A program made the position numbers and the translations under genes. Source: Flavobacteriales bacterium (GTDB taxonomy: Bacteria; Bacteroidota; Bacteroidia; Flavobacteriales_G; Salibacteraceae). From it: 64,000 nucleotides of DNA. Position 1 is the first letter of the stretch. The number at the start of each line of letters is the position of its first letter. A model generated the notes under the pieces. That model did no database searches. It saw nothing but the letters and a program-made list of their open reading frames with translations, and was not told the DNA's origin. The stretch lies in NCBI GenBank assembly GCA_013204105.1, contig JABMOM010000032.1, positions 186,001 to 250,000 of the forward strand. Reading direction: 5' to 3'. Positions 3,093 to 9,008 of this stretch are shown here, in pieces.

Positions 3093-3452
3093 CTAGATCC
3101 AGTCGAGGTCTTCCCGTTTTCTCGGATCCTCTGACCCTCCGGTATTTATCGTAGATGCAGGCTCGAAGAGCAGCACTTCCACCTCCCTTTCCGCCACAGG
3201 TCGGTGTTCCACTCCAGCGGGAACAATGATAAATTCTCCGGGTTGTACAGTTTCTGTCCGATCCCTGAATTCCATTTTCAGTTCCCCCGATACGACCAAG
3301 AACAGTTCATCTTCTTCGGTATGAGAGTGCCATACAAACTCACCTTCGAGCTTAGCCAACTTTACGTGTTGGCCATTTAAGGCACCCACGATCCTTGGGT
3401 TCCAATGATCGCTGAATAGCTTAAGCTTTTCTTTTAGGTTGACAGGTTTCAT
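3093..3452 (-). CDS. Single-domain cupin protein
   Basis: 119-aa cupin. Motif 1 is seen as HSHTEEDE (H42, H44, E49) followed by the V-S-G turn at 54-56. Motif 2 is seen as PGEFIIVPAGVEHRP with H83. Together they give the usual three-His/one-Glu metal site, so a metal-binding small beta-barrel is likely. No catalytic role or ligand can be assigned. The C-terminal tail after residue 95 is polar and rich in charged residues. The start codon overlaps the stop of the preceding lipoprotein gene by 4 nt (ATGA), so it is the last gene of the minus-strand exporter operon (9008 to 3093). It may be a sensor or enzyme for the exported compound, which is inference from position only. Confidence 0.8.
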   Translation of the reverse strand: MKPVNLKEKLKLFSDHWNPRIVGALNGQHVKLAKLEGEFVWHSHTEEDELFLVVSGELKMEFRDRTETVQPGEFIIVPAGVEHRPVAEREVEVLLFEPASTINTGGSEDPRKREDLDWI

Positions 3453-4456
3453 AGCATTCGTTCATCCAGAGGCCGCACAAACCCGAAGTAGGGGGTAGAG
3501 ACGTCTTGCGTGGGCATTTCATTGAAAGCGCGGTAGAACAAAAACGGAACGTCTTCATCAACGCCGGGGTAGTTCTCTAAGCAGAGTGCGTGCAGTGCCT
3601 TGTTCTCAGCAGCTAAGGCCAAGGTGTCTTTGATATTGATTTGCGTGACGTACTTGATCATCGCGCAGATTTGGTCATCGACCCGTTGGGGGGTGATTTG
3701 AAATATGGTGGGTTCTGTAGGAAGGGCATCGATTGTCACTGGCATTGGATAAGTCTTCTTTGCTTCTTCCATCAGTTTCTGGTTGAAGGCATCCATATCG
3801 CTTTGGATACGAAATTGCCAGAATTCACCTGCGGGTTGGGAACATGATTGCGAAAGGATCATGCGATTGAATGCATTCACAACATGGCCATGAGCGTATT
3901 CTTCTTCTGCCTTCCGAAAGAGCTGAATGGCCGAAAAGCCGCTGATGGTGTAACGGTCGTATTGAATGATATTCAATTTCCAACCATCATCAAACAAGCC
4001 GTAAAACGTAGTCAAGAGGTAGGCGTCTCCCTCCCTTTTCGGTGAGAGCACGGAAACGAACGACTGCTCATTGATGGCTTGGTATTGCAGGATGTAATCA
4101 TCGTCCTTTTCCGTTCCGGATATAAGTGCAACGATTTCATTCTGAGTACTGCTGATGCGGTGGTATTGATCAAGGGTAACTAAAGCGCCTTCGCCGATTG
4201 TACGTTGTGCCCGTTCTATAAACGCTTCAATCCCTTCGTCAAGCGATGCCTTCAACTCATCAGACATCATGCGCTTGAGCGCTTCTGCATTTCCATCGGA
4301 CAGATGTTTGTGGACTTCTGCATCCAAAGCGCGTATCTCTGACAATACATCGGAATCGATGTTCTCATTCCTATAGGTTCCACTGGGGGTTTCCTTGCAA
4401 GAAACCGTGAGAAAGGCTAGTAGAGCAACAATGAAGAATCGTGATGGGGTGAACAT
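3449..4456 (-). CDS. Lipoprotein of unknown function in exporter operon
   Basis: I place the start at 4456, not at the longer frame's 4510, because the peptide from there (MFTPSRFFIVALLAFLTVSC) is a proper lipoprotein signal with the lipobox Cys at residue 20. The longer form puts 18 polar residues before it and would run back to the tolC stop. The mature part starts with a helical, charged region of about 60 residues (EALKRMMSDELKASLDEG), followed by mixed sheet. It contains the paired aromatic region LLTTFYGLFDDGWKLNIIQYD, and the C-terminal third holds four Cys. I do not recognise a family. It follows tolC by 53 nt and overlaps the cupin gene by 4 nt, so it is likely an envelope accessory factor of the exporter. 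Confidence 0.75.
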   Translation of the reverse strand: MFTPSRFFIVALLAFLTVSCKETPSGTYRNENIDSDVLSEIRALDAEVHKHLSDGNAEALKRMMSDELKASLDEGIEAFIERAQRTIGEGALVTLDQYHRISSTQNEIVALISGTEKDDDYILQYQAINEQSFVSVLSPKREGDAYLLTTFYGLFDDGWKLNIIQYDRYTISGFSAIQLFRKAEEEYAHGHVVNAFNRMILSQSCSQPAGEFWQFRIQSDMDAFNQKLMEEAKKTYPMPVTIDALPTEPTIFQITPQRVDDQICAMIKYVTQINIKDTLALAAENKALHALCLENYPGVDEDVPFLFYRAFNEMPTQDVSTPYFGFVRPLDERML

Positions 4457-4509
4457 AGGTATGCGTGCATTTAAGGGTCGAAAATAGAACCCGAGATGCA
4501 CATAGCGCA

Positions 4510-5931
4510 TTATTCTGCGACAGCGTCTAAGTAAATGTCCTCCTTGTTGGACGTCTGGATTACTTTGAAGATTGATCCGATCTGCTTGGCTTGGGTTTCC
4601 AGTTGTTTGGCTTGGGCATCGAAAAGTTTGTTTTCTCGAGCATTCAAGAGAAAAACGCTGCTTTCTCCAAGCGAAAACTTGATGCGCTCGGCCCGTAGCA
4701 AGCGATCAAAATTGCTAACCATCTCTCCGTAAAGATCAGCCTGTTGAGCATTGATGCCATATTCCATGATGTGTTGATCCAACTTCGTAGAGAGGCCAAG
4801 GGATTTCACCTTAAGGTCGAGCTCTTTTTCACTGCGTTTTAGATCGATCAGACTGAGCTTAGAACGTTGTTTTCGGATGAGCAACGGGTACTTTAAGCCA
4901 ACGCCAAACATACGGTCATTGATACCCATTGCTTGGATGTCTCGGTTGCTCACGCCTGGAGTAAGCGCCATATATTTCAAATCAATTTGAGGAATGGCAC
5001 CACTGAAGGCGGTTTGTCGTTCTAATTTCAGCGACTGAATGGCAAGTTGATTGATTAAGATGCTTGGATGCTGTTGTGTTATTTCTTCTTTCCATACCAT
5101 GAAGCTATCTTGAACTTGCTGCGTGAACGGAGCGAATTCTTCCAGGGATTGCGGAAGCATTCTATCTGCAAGTCGAACCGGATTGCCTTCTTGATCCCAA
5201 AGGAAATTAGAGAGGATAATCTCAGCGCTGTTCAAGGCGCGGCGAGATTCTAACAGCTGGAAGCGACGCGTTTGAACTTGTAAAAAAGCCTCTACCGTAT
5301 CGATGGCGGGGCGGTCTCCTCCGGTGAAGACACCTTTTACGAATTGAAATTGCTCCTCGGCCAGGCTCAGGGCGTCCTCCTGAACGGTGATCGATTGATT
5401 GGCCAGAGACCAATTCAAGTAAGCTAGGCTTGCTCTAAAGAACAGGTCATTGACCATCAGCCTTCGCTCTGCATCGGCCATTTCCGTCATAAGTCCCGCT
5501 TTGCGGATGGCTAATCGTCGCTCATTGAAGAGCAGGTCAGGACCCAGCGGAAGACTGACGCCTGCTTGATACTGCCCCGAAGAGGAGGTCAGGATCTCTG
5601 GGTCCACTTGTGGTCCTATGTTCTCTGTATACCCTGCGAAAAACTCGACACCAAGCGCTGTGGGGAGTGCCAGCTTCAGGGATGATTTCGTGTAATATTC
5701 TTTGTCGTCATAGGCCTTATCACCATAGCTGGCTGATACATAAGGATCCATGACTGCTTGTTGCAGCCGAAGATTGGCATCGGCGATGTCTACTTGCAGT
5801 CCCGCTTGCTGCATGATGGGATGAAAACCTACGAGCTGGTTTAAAAAATCAGCATAGCTGAAGGTTTGCGCCAAAAGAGAGGGTCCTGTGAGTGCAAAAA
5901 TGAAAATCAGTATCTGCCGACGGCCAATCAT
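4510..5931 (-). CDS. TolC-family outer-membrane efflux protein
   Basis: 473-aa protein with an N-terminal signal peptide (MIGRRQILIFIFALTGPSLLAQ) and the long amphipathic helices typical of the outer-membrane efflux family. Heptad-like stretches such as LSLAEEQFQFVKGVFTGG and DRLLRAERIKFSLGESSVF mark the two internal helical repeats. The GESSVFLLNARE segment near residue 425 is the usual family block at the end of the second repeat. It forms the trimeric outer-membrane channel for the HlyD (5928-7277) and ABC (7281-9008) partners. Its start overlaps the HlyD stop by 4 nt. Length is normal and no key segment looks missing. Confidence 0.88.
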   Translation of the reverse strand: MIGRRQILIFIFALTGPSLLAQTFSYADFLNQLVGFHPIMQQAGLQVDIADANLRLQQAVMDPYVSASYGDKAYDDKEYYTKSSLKLALPTALGVEFFAGYTENIGPQVDPEILTSSSGQYQAGVSLPLGPDLLFNERRLAIRKAGLMTEMADAERRLMVNDLFFRASLAYLNWSLANQSITVQEDALSLAEEQFQFVKGVFTGGDRPAIDTVEAFLQVQTRRFQLLESRRALNSAEIILSNFLWDQEGNPVRLADRMLPQSLEEFAPFTQQVQDSFMVWKEEITQQHPSILINQLAIQSLKLERQTAFSGAIPQIDLKYMALTPGVSNRDIQAMGINDRMFGVGLKYPLLIRKQRSKLSLIDLKRSEKELDLKVKSLGLSTKLDQHIMEYGINAQQADLYGEMVSNFDRLLRAERIKFSLGESSVFLLNARENKLFDAQAKQLETQAKQIGSIFKVIQTSNKEDIYLDAVAE

Positions 5932-7277
5932 TTCTTCTCGACAGTGTTTCCGTTTTTCCCGTTGTAGAATTCCGGCGGAAATCCGTTCATCTGACGCCAG
6001 ATTTCATACCAGATTGGAACATCTTGCAAAAGCGCGATGGCTTGGGCTCCAGACCCCATTCGTAGTTCTTTCGGCCATGCGATTGCCTCTGTATTAGGTG
6101 CCACGAGGATTCGGTACTTGCCATTATCGCTCGTGACGTTGTCTATGGCCATTACCTTTCCGCTGTAGGTTCCCACTGAGTTGTCTGGCCAGCCAGAGAA
6201 AACGAGTGAAGGCCAGCCATCAAAAATGAACCGTACCTCACTTCCTGTGCTGATCAGCGGAAGGTCAATAGGCCGCACATACATTTCAACCGCCAATTCA
6301 GAAACATTCGGAACGATGCTGACAATGGCATCACCTTCTTTGATTGTCTCTCCAAGTCCACTTTGAAGCGCCTTGGTGATAAAGCCGTCTTGTGGAGCAG
6401 TAATGAAATACATGGAAGATCGAATCGTGTAGTTGGAAACTTCGTTCAGTGTTTTGGCGAGCTTCCCTTCTGCATCCAACATATCACTGAGTGCCGTGAA
6501 TTTCTCGCTTTCACTCTTAGCGATTTTGTCATTGTAATCGGAGAGCACCGAGGTTAATTCAATTTTGGCATTGAGCAATTCGTTGCGGGATGTCAAAAGT
6601 TTGTTTTCTGCAGAAACGAATTTAGCCTCTGCTTCTCGATAGGTCTGTCTGTAGTTCTCTACTTCGGTCAACGACTTTAACCCCTGCTCATACAATCCTT
6701 CAAAGCGTTCGTACTGTTTCTCAGCGATCTCAATATTCGATGTCGCCGCTTGTAGATCCAAGCTGTCGCTTTTTACTTTCAATTCACCTTGCCGAAACTT
6801 ATTCTTTGCCTGTTGTATTTTGAGATCTTGGGTTTGTTTCAAGGCGGCAACTTGTTGATCCAGTGCATCGATCTTCTTTATATAGGCCTGAATGCCTCCC
6901 TCTTGCGCAATCAATCGCTCCTTCGTTCGGGTAAGTAAATTCGGGTCAAAGTATTCATCCTTTACCTCCGAAATGAATAGTATCGTATCGCCTTTATTTA
7001 CGAATTGACCTTCTTGGATATACCATTTTTCGATTCTACCAGCGATGACCGAATTCACTACTTGAGGACGTTGTTCAGGCCGCAGATTGGTTACATAACC
7101 ATCGGCTTGGATGTTTTGTGTCCAAGGCAGAAAAAGGAAAAGAATGAAAATGATTACCATTCCGATAAGCCAGCGCATCATTTTTCTCGGAAGAGCCGAA
7201 TGATAGATGGATCCTTCGCTTCCCGTTTTGGTAAGATCGAGCAGGTGAGAGACGCTATTTTTTGAAATATTCAGCAT
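5928..7277 (-). CDS. HlyD-family membrane fusion protein
   Basis: 449-aa periplasmic adaptor. A single membrane segment lies near residues 33-51 (MMRWLIGMVIIFILFLFLP). The first half-lipoyl motif follows (VNSVIAGRIEKWYIQEGQFVNKGDTILFI). A long coiled coil covers roughly residues 110-290, rich in Gln, Lys and Glu. The second lipoyl half is ITAPQDGFITKALQSGLGETIKEGD, and a beta-barrel domain ends the protein. It links the inner-membrane ABC protein to TolC. It starts 3 nt after the ABC gene and overlaps tolC by 4 nt, so the three must be translated from one mRNA. The unusual point is the partner ABC protein, whose ATPase motifs are degenerate. Confidence 0.88.
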   Translation of the reverse strand: MLNISKNSVSHLLDLTKTGSEGSIYHSALPRKMMRWLIGMVIIFILFLFLPWTQNIQADGYVTNLRPEQRPQVVNSVIAGRIEKWYIQEGQFVNKGDTILFISEVKDEYFDPNLLTRTKERLIAQEGGIQAYIKKIDALDQQVAALKQTQDLKIQQAKNKFRQGELKVKSDSLDLQAATSNIEIAEKQYERFEGLYEQGLKSLTEVENYRQTYREAEAKFVSAENKLLTSRNELLNAKIELTSVLSDYNDKIAKSESEKFTALSDMLDAEGKLAKTLNEVSNYTIRSSMYFITAPQDGFITKALQSGLGETIKEGDAIVSIVPNVSELAVEMYVRPIDLPLISTGSEVRFIFDGWPSLVFSGWPDNSVGTYSGKVMAIDNVTSDNGKYRILVAPNTEAIAWPKELRMGSGAQAIALLQDVPIWYEIWRQMNGFPPEFYNGKNGNTVEKK

Positions 7278-7280
7278 GGT

Positions 7281-9008
7281 TTATTCGTAGAATAGATCTA
7301 ATAATGCAGGCTGTTTATTCAACTCGTCGAAGCTTCCGTTGAAGGTCAGCTCCCCTTGGTCCAAGATTAAAATGCGATCGCATTGCTCGGCAATGTGCTT
7401 GGAACCTGAGCTTACGATTAGGGTCCATGGTTTATCCTTTGAAAGCATGCACTTATTCACAATTTCCTTGTCGCCTTGAGAAAACAAATGCATGGATTCC
7501 TGCCAGATGACGAGAGGTGGTTGCTCCACGATGGATCGCGCTATTTTAATCTTTCGCACAATGTGTTCTGGGAGACCGCTTCCTTTCGGTGATAATTGTG
7601 TATAAAACCCTTCGGGTAATTGCTTTATATAATCCATTAACCCAGTTTGTTCAGACGCCCATTTGAGGTCGTCGAAATCAATCCAATCCTTGCCAATTAG
7701 AATGTTTTCTGAGATGGTCCCTTCGAATATATCCTCTTCGCTCAAGCTGTCGCCAATGTGGGAACGAAGCGATCTGAGTTCTAGGCTATTTGCCGACTGA
7801 TCATTGTACAGTATCACACCTTCATAGTTTTGATACAATCCAGCCAATAACTCAAGCAGTTTGCTTCTTCCTGAGCCGCTGTAACCATAGACCATAACGC
7901 GTTCTCCAGCGGCGATGTCGAAGCTGATGTTCTTCAACAGGGTTTGTCCTATTTGATTTGTACCGTACGTCAGGTTTTTTACCGAAACACTGAGTGGTGC
8001 ACGATTTTCAGAAAGCTCAAGGGGCACGCCGCCTTCTCTCTCCAATTCTAAATCGGTGATCGAAGCAATCTTTTCAAGTGCAGTAAGCACGTCGTAAACT
8101 GGTTCCATGGTTCGGATTAGTTTTTCGACGCTGTTGATGATCAATATGATGATGATCTCAGTAGCGACAAACTGACCCAAGTTGATCTGATTGTCAAGCA
8201 CCAAAATACTTCCGATGATCAATAGCCCTCCCGCGACCATGGCCTTGAATCCGATTACATTCATGTACTGAATGACCAGAATGCGGAAATGGCTTTTGCG
8301 AGCCAACAGGTAATTCGAGACCAATTTATCTGTGCGCTGAACGGGTAGTCCAGATTCACCAGCCAGCTTAAACGTATTCATGGTTCTGGCCAATTCTTCC
8401 AACCAATAAGCAACTTGATATTTGTAGGTGCTCTCTTCAATACTGGTCTCTAATCCTTTTGAGCCTGTAGCCCGAATCACGAGGTATAACGTAAGAACAA
8501 GCGCGATGCCGAACAGAATGAAGAATGGGTGATAGAAACTGAGCAACAAGAGTCCAAAAATGATTTGCAGTGCAGACGCACCGACATCTAGTAGAATCTT
8601 GGATAGGCCTTTTTGAAGTGATAGCGTATCAAAAAACCGATTGATGAGCTCAGGCGCATATTTCGACGCAACTTGCTCAAGTCGGATGCGTGGAATACGA
8701 ATGGCAAATTCAAAGGATGAGCGTTGAAATATCCGCTGTTGGATGGTCTCCGCTAACGATAGTTGCATGACTTGCATACCACCGGCTAAGATGATGCCTA
8801 GGATCACCAATATGACAAGCAGTACCCAAGAAGTGGAAATCATACCGCCGCTTATATAGGTGATGATGGCTTGGATACCAAGGGGTAAGGATAGGTTGAT
8901 CAATCCACTCAGCACGGCAAAAATGTAGATCCGAATAATGTCCTTACGGTCGGCCTTTATTAAGCTGAACAATCTACCTAGCGGCGATATGTCATTACCT
9001 TTTGCCAT
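7281..9008 (-). CDS. ABC exporter, fused membrane and nucleotide-binding domains, degenerate ATPase motifs
   Basis: 575-aa half-transporter. Residues 1-310 form the six-helix exporter membrane domain and residues 340-575 the nucleotide-binding domain. The fold of the second domain is clear (LKNISFDIAAGERVMVYGYSG, GTISENI, IKIARSI, LILDQGEL), but the catalytic motifs are altered. Walker A reads GYSGSGRSK (375-383) with Arg in place of the invariant Lys. The LSGGQ signature is replaced by GLPEH (478-482). Walker B reads LVIWQE (499-504) with Gln for the Asp. The H-loop His is replaced by Ser/Gly near 534-535. The frame is intact, so this is not a pseudogene. It heads the exporter operon with HlyD, TolC, lipoprotein and cupin genes. 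It may bind but hardly hydrolyse ATP, or pair with a catalytic subunit elsewhere. Confidence 0.85.
   Translation of the reverse strand: MAKGNDISPLGRLFSLIKADRKDIIRIYIFAVLSGLINLSLPLGIQAIITYISGGMISTSWVLLVILVILGIILAGGMQVMQLSLAETIQQRIFQRSSFEFAIRIPRIRLEQVASKYAPELINRFFDTLSLQKGLSKILLDVGASALQIIFGLLLLSFYHPFFILFGIALVLTLYLVIRATGSKGLETSIEESTYKYQVAYWLEELARTMNTFKLAGESGLPVQRTDKLVSNYLLARKSHFRILVIQYMNVIGFKAMVAGGLLIIGSILVLDNQINLGQFVATEIIIILIINSVEKLIRTMEPVYDVLTALEKIASITDLELEREGGVPLELSENRAPLSVSVKNLTYGTNQIGQTLLKNISFDIAAGERVMVYGYSGSGRSKLLELLAGLYQNYEGVILYNDQSANSLELRSLRSHIGDSLSEEDIFEGTISENILIGKDWIDFDDLKWASEQTGLMDYIKQLPEGFYTQLSPKGSGLPEHIVRKIKIARSIVEQPPLVIWQESMHLFSQGDKEIVNKCMLSKDKPWTLIVSSGSKHIAEQCDRILILDQGELTFNGSFDELNKQPALLDLFYE

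Follow-up and report, generated by a model that had tools for sequence, protein, structure and literature searches.

The window analysed here, by which we mean the whole stretch of 64,000 nucleotides taken from a genome assembly of 46 contigs, carries a gene for an ABC-type exporter half-transporter with altered catalytic motifs in its nucleotide-binding domain (NBD) and, beside it, genes for an HlyD adaptor and a TolC channel (Table 1). Only 3 bp separate the permease gene from hlyD, and hlyD and tolC overlap by 4 bp, in agreement with the tight packing of these genes reported in a preliminary description of the locus. The order ABC-HlyD-TolC was held wherever the flanks of an orthologue were complete, usually with a TetR-type regulator upstream; the genus of the window does without this regulator and has a glycosyltransferase gene and metK there instead. 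The putative lipoprotein is probably an operon member restricted to this genus (L031, L032, L065), and together with the cupin protein it lengthens the operon in this genus only. No recurrent substrate gene (RTX or GG-leader) was seen beside the operon when the flanking genes were viewed. One genome, G054, has two paralogous pseudo-ATPase operons (L055 on C11 and L056 on C3) of the form with an N-terminal extension, each with its own HlyD and TolC.

Table 1. Genes, domains and motif positions of the exporter locus, in coordinates of the window.
Feature	Position	Strand	Evidence
Pseudo-ATPase type IV ABC exporter half-transporter, transmembrane domain (TMD) plus degenerate NBD	7281..9008	minus	uninterrupted ORF, 575 aa
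Transmembrane domain, residues 1-335, six long helices	8004..9008	minus	alignments, per-state conservation, model
Degenerate nucleotide-binding domain, residues 336-575	7284..8003	minus	Pfam, alignments, motif census
Walker A position GYSGSGRS, G375 to S, Lys381 to Arg	7863..7886	minus	translation, alignment
Signature (LSGGQ) position, reading LPEHI, residues 479-483	7560..7574	minus	alignment
Walker B position LVIWQE, L499-E504, Asp503 to Gln	7497..7514	minus	alignment
H-loop position S534-G535, His lost	7404..7409	minus	alignment
HlyD-family periplasmic adaptor, 449 aa, next in operon	5928..7277	minus	Pfam HlyD_3 and HlyD_D23; conserved gene order
TolC-family outer-membrane channel, 473 aa	4510..5931	minus	Pfam OEP 1.9e-31; conserved gene order
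353-aa protein with apparent lipoprotein signal, overlapping tolC	3449..4510	minus	no Pfam match above cut-off
Small cupin protein, end of gene run, loosely associated	3093..3452	minus	Pfam Cupin_2

The preliminary description had read altered Walker A, signature, Walker B and H-loop motifs in a protein whose frame and fold were intact. We re-read each of these positions in the minus-strand ORF and confirmed all four alterations; the ORF was uninterrupted, and an AlphaFold2 model (pLDDT 89) predicted a complete type IV exporter in which the NBD fold is kept. At the Walker B position the catalytic Glu is still Glu (E504), and in the alignment the Q-loop is altered too while the A-loop aromatic residue Y348 is retained. 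Pfam ABC_membrane and ABC_tran both matched the protein above cut-off, and among the NCBIfam models it scored best against exporters for bacteriocins and for type I secretion, although every one of these scores fell far short of the model's cut-off. Among the closest structures to the model were HlyB (8dck, TM-score 0.89) and PCAT1 (0.88-0.89). Pfam, the model and the structure comparison all place the type IV exporter TMD fold in this protein, and a C39 or C39-like N-terminal domain is absent from it. The structural evidence in this study consists of single-chain models, and all other evidence is drawn from sequence.

Orthologues 39-95% identical to the window protein were present in about 35 of 60 genomes searched, most other exporters being 20-31% identical. 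For a motif census we used 142 non-redundant Bacteroidota orthologues; they were selected for scoring well against a profile built on the eroded family, and the frequencies are therefore approximate. The Walker B Asp-Glu pair was retained in none of these sequences, the H-loop His in 1/142, and the signature Ser with the second Gly in 6/142, whereas the Walker A Lys and the A-loop aromatic residue were each retained in 133/142. An acidic residue stood at the Walker B Asp position in 101/142 sequences and at the Glu position in 113/142. As read from this census, what has been lost family-wide is the hydrolysis apparatus. The Walker A Lys is also gone in a few other lineages (e.g. L049/L051/L052, L079 and L147) and is absent in L061 and L213; within the genus of the window, the homologue in G009 (95% identical) agrees with the window protein at the altered positions, and a species 73% identical to it (G011) still has GKS in Walker A. 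The losses at Walker B, the H-loop and the signature are family-wide; the change from Lys to Arg is, on this distribution, a later step in the window lineage and a few others. Because most members keep the Walker A Lys, the A-loop aromatic residue and acidic Walker B residues, those with the Lys may still bind ATP, and may even show weak, non-canonical hydrolysis. The NBD of the window protein itself, judged by its residues, very probably does not hydrolyse ATP.

Decay into a pseudogene, or sequencing error, is another conceivable explanation for such losses, and a frame break does occur in the family: the G009 orthologue (L031, G009:C2, ~9100) lacks one base, so that its frame is split after residue 79, probably through an error in sequencing or because the gene was disrupted very recently. 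However, the frame in the window is intact, and direct comparison with G009, the one informative pair on which the ratio rests, put dN/dS at 0.019 in the TMD and at 0.028 in the NBD (dS ~1.1), indicating strong purifying selection on both domains of the window protein. Furthermore, the same motifs are changed in the 142 sequences across many genera, and losses as consistent as those at Walker B, the H-loop and the signature go far beyond what chance or sequencing error could produce. We regard decay or error as an extremely improbable source of the lost motifs, and for the family the comparison refutes it. Homologues with intact residues in the same operon order, which the preliminary description had named as a sign of simple decay, were encountered only in a deep outgroup and not among close homologues.

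The two domains differed in their rate of divergence. Mean identity within the family was 36% for the NBD vs 56% for the TMD, and the NBD was above the TMD in 0.2% of pairs; for a canonical MsbA-like exporter from the same genomes, the values were 63% (NBD) and 65% (TMD), with the NBD above the TMD in 34% of pairs. In this control exporter, represented by G000 L222 (1441-3237) and by its orthologues, the catalytic Glu of Walker B is often replaced by Asp (FDD), and on that residue the control may itself be the degenerate half of a heterodimer. In L334 (6022-7683), L335 (6432-8129; f90) and L330 (5789-7324; f91), the C-terminal domain of ~200 aa is almost or wholly undetectable by Pfam ABC_tran, and we read these domains as NBDs eroded beyond recognition. 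The gene is broken by contig ends in two genomes of one genus (the ends of G638:C16 and G638:C7 and the start of G708:C8; L328, L329 and L337), where an insertion or repeat may be present.

The deep outgroup comprised 27 relatives of 580-830 aa that belong to the same phylum but not to the same class; for most of them the ABC-HlyD-TolC gene order is shared. All 27 kept the Walker A Lys, 25 the Asp-Glu pair and 21 the His; the signature was already loosened, with S..G in 11. Judged from these motifs, the outgroup is the ancestral, ATPase-competent state. Most of its members have a long N-terminal extension, and 17 members of the eroded clade have one of similar length. The model of one of the latter (L123) could be superposed on HlyB along its whole length (8dck_A; 669 aligned residues between model positions 2 and 725), the C39-like domain included. 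This fit of the predicted structure suggests that the lineage most likely descends from an HlyB-like exporter.

Some relatives have no NBD at all. In nine genomes (the counts of pseudo, absent and fused states come from samples), a TMD-only gene of 332-339 aa ends after the sixth TM helix and is followed directly by hlyD and tolC. The distance to hlyD was -8 to +66 bp in the six measured, and the TMD-only genes counted here abut or overlap hlyD, so that an NBD would not fit between the two. Nor are gaps in the assemblies an explanation, as three of the genomes (G306, G318 and G223) are assembled in 1-4 contigs. With tblastn, no NBD remnant was detected beside the TMD-only genes at six of the nine loci, only weak and distant matches. 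Nor was a family-type NBD found elsewhere in six of the nine genomes, where the best score against the family NBD profile was 162 bits, vs 340 bits for the true family NBD of a control genome (G247). Both searches, for remnants and genome-wide, were confined to six TMD-only genomes, and the five genomes with the fusion described below lie outside their scope. A 355-aa ORF in G004:C8, from the genus of the window, was rejected as a further TMD-only gene: it is part of a different kind of exporter whose frame is broken, and the NBD lies in the ORF that follows. This exporter (L267, 1381-3151) and L268 (G000:C32, 1901-3796) are both ABC exporters of the other kind beside polysaccharide-type genes, and the splitting of the former into TMD and NBD frames is a caution for TMD-only calls.

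In another five genomes the TMD continues directly into HlyD, giving a single protein of 749-781 aa. The tolC gene overlaps or adjoins the fusion gene, and four of the five fusions have a divergently oriented tetR beside them. In exporters TM6 ends in the cytoplasm, where HlyD begins, so that the fusion fits the established topology. In a tree of TMD and HlyD, the TMD-only genes formed one clade beside L217, a pseudo-ATPase with an N-terminal extension, and the fusions formed a second clade among the pseudo-ATPases that lack the extension. In a tree built from the TMD alone, the clade of TMD-only genes also fell within the eroded family (100/99). A single loss of the NBD was rejected (AU test, p = 1.07e-06; 40 rows, model without mixture), and on these phylogenies two independent losses are needed.

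Conserved residues in the window TMD include E87, N123-R124-F125-F126, K133, H240, E284, D306 and K313. E87, K133, K137, E284, D306 and K313 were kept in every eroded state, Y233, R237 and H240 nearly so, and E295 in nearly all eroded states, suggesting that the membrane path is constrained with or without the pseudo-NBD. We looked across the states for a gain of new acidic residues upon loss of the ATPase, and found none. E87, E284 and E295 are candidates for ion coupling; they are candidates rather than proof because the ATPase-competent outgroup also has E284 (14/15) and E295, and mostly Asp at position 87. Coupling helix 2 (~residues 205-217) is retained in proteins with a pseudo-NBD and lost in the TMD-only, fused and strongly eroded forms, and the model of the window protein has short helices at the coupling-helix positions. 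As coupling helix 2 is kept only together with the pseudo-NBD, this domain of the window protein probably remains docked to the TMD.

The fusion of the TMD directly to HlyD in five genomes, and the better conservation of HlyD than of TolC across the operons compared, would also be expected if the TMD only anchored HlyD, or assembled it against TolC, for another energised pump. We consider such a scaffold quite improbable: no other pump is linked to the operon, and the persistence of the charged TMD residues listed above, H240 and K137 among them, through the states goes beyond what an anchor would need.

The preliminary description had offered two readings, a structural subunit that pairs with a separate ATPase, perhaps linked to it in other genomes, or a distinct class of transporter powered otherwise. 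For the first of these, the pseudo-ATPase chain would form a heteromer with an active ABC exporter encoded elsewhere, as in TAP, TM287/288 and CFTR. Potential partners exist: five further ABC_membrane proteins are encoded in G000, and at least four of these belong to canonical exporter groups; the Walker A Lys and A-loop kept by most family members, and the conservation of coupling helix 2 alongside the pseudo-NBD, are likewise compatible with pairing. However, no second ABC exporter was linked to the operon in the operons examined. ABC-like genes upstream of the outgroup loci L201 and L208 were identified as UvrA, and for a 282-aa ABC gene two genes past TolC at L184 no counterpart was shown in other TMD-only loci. 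Four canonical exporter orthogroups occurred in all seven genomes of the genus tested, with or without the window gene, and the fifth in one carrier and one non-carrier genome; counting and orthogroup clustering in these seven genomes revealed no carrier-specific exporter. Degenerate partner chains normally break one composite site, but here Walker B, the His and LSGGQ are all missing on one chain, which would break both. Moreover, a split ATP site is impossible in the TMD-only and TMD-HlyD relatives because they have no NBD to pair. With no linked exporter, and exporter orthogroups equally present without the window gene, the first reading was not sustained: a heteromer seems rather unlikely to us, and we think it likely that there is no dedicated ABC partner, although a housekeeping ABC protein may be shared.

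The second reading fared better, given the family-wide catalytic loss, the purifying selection and the NBD-less and fused relatives, with the power source itself left to inference. In the model we propose, the product of the window gene would be the inner-membrane permease of a tripartite exporter made up of permease, HlyD adaptor and TolC channel. The NBD would serve a structural or regulatory role without hydrolysing ATP; in most members it may act as an ATP-binding switch, and in the window lineage, where Arg replaces the Lys, it probably lacks even that function. A TMD dimer would pass substrate into the HlyD-TolC conduit without ATP hydrolysis of its own. The energy would most likely come from coupling to an ion or proton gradient, as in SbmA, with E87 and E284 as candidate residues, and a passive gated pore would be the next choice.

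A rival to this model gives ATP a role without hydrolysis: ATP or another nucleotide on the P-loop would gate the channel, and transport would run down a gradient. The Walker A Lys and A-loop aromatic frequencies of the census, set beside the loss of the hydrolysis residues, are what such a switch would predict, as is the low dN/dS of the NBD in the window protein. For the family as a whole we nevertheless find the switch unlikely, in view of the Arg for Lys in the window lineage, the members without the Lys (L061 and L213), the f90 NBD that Pfam hardly recognises, and the relatives that have no NBD. Returning to the tripartite permease, we assign a probability of roughly 60% to the reading that an HlyB-type lineage became a pseudo-ATPase permease in a TolC conduit, able to dispense with its ATPase. 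That it constitutes an ABC-derived, ATP-independent class of tripartite exporter, with an ion-gradient-driven or passive permease in the HlyD-TolC conduit, we hold more tentatively, at a little under an even chance. Proton or ion coupling specifically is more tentative still, and a gated passive pore or the ATP-binding switch takes most of the remaining probability.

With all states taken together, the family was present in 197/395 genomes and 115/196 genera of a class-wide sample (cut-off E 1e-60), and named relatives include Olleya, Polaribacter, Algoriphagus, Pontibacter, Roseivirga, Cyclobacterium and Salegentibacter. We found no published description of it in the open-access literature searched. 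Automatic annotation is likely to label these proteins ATP-binding exporters. ABC exporters are defined by ATP-driven transport; ATP-independence, if shown at the bench, would amount to a new class of energisation. The family is also a natural experiment on the role of the ATPase, in which catalytic residues were lost and the ATPase has twice gone while adaptor and channel were kept. Its graded series of active, pseudo, eroded, absent and fused states in one operon setting makes energy coupling and the role of the coupling helices testable, and with them the evolution of secondary transporters from ABC proteins, for which SbmA is, to our knowledge, the main worked example.

The energised classes of tripartite systems have been listed as ABC, RND and MFS, and no ATPase-less ABC class is listed (PMC8277102). 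The type I secretion exporters HlyB and PCAT1 share the overall fold of the window protein and the same HlyD and TolC partners. They differ in that the family lacks the Walker B Asp-Glu pair, the H-loop His and LSGGQ, some relatives lack the NBD altogether, and the window member also lacks the Walker A Lys and the C39-like domain. TAP, TM287/288, TmrAB and BmrCD likewise contain a chain with altered catalytic residues, but they have a canonical partner and one intact site, whereas here all catalytic motifs are altered on one chain and no linked or co-inherited partner was found.

By analogy, SbmA would be the nearest mechanistic precedent. It is an ABC-fold transporter without an NBD that is driven by the proton gradient, and it is thought to derive from a YddA-like ABC ancestor that lost its NBD (PMC13316013). 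Like SbmA/BacA (SLiPT), which has the type IV ABC transmembrane fold, nine TMD-only and five fused relatives have an ABC-type TMD and no NBD. SbmA/BacA, however, is an importer; it has two additional helices (TM0), lacks coupling helices and does not partner with HlyD or TolC. The window protein retains both the coupling helices and a pseudo-NBD, has no TM0, and is accompanied by an adaptor and a channel. The lineages differ as well, YddA-like in the one case and HlyB-like in the other, and proton coupling is here only inferred. The window protein is thus not a member of the SLiPT group; the absence of SbmA from the best 50 PDB matches of the window model in itself excludes nothing. In EmrAB-TolC (MFS) and AcrAB-TolC (RND), the TolC conduit is energised by the proton gradient and not by ATP. 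The conduit described here would probably resemble them in running on something other than ATP, but its inner-membrane unit descends from an ABC exporter.
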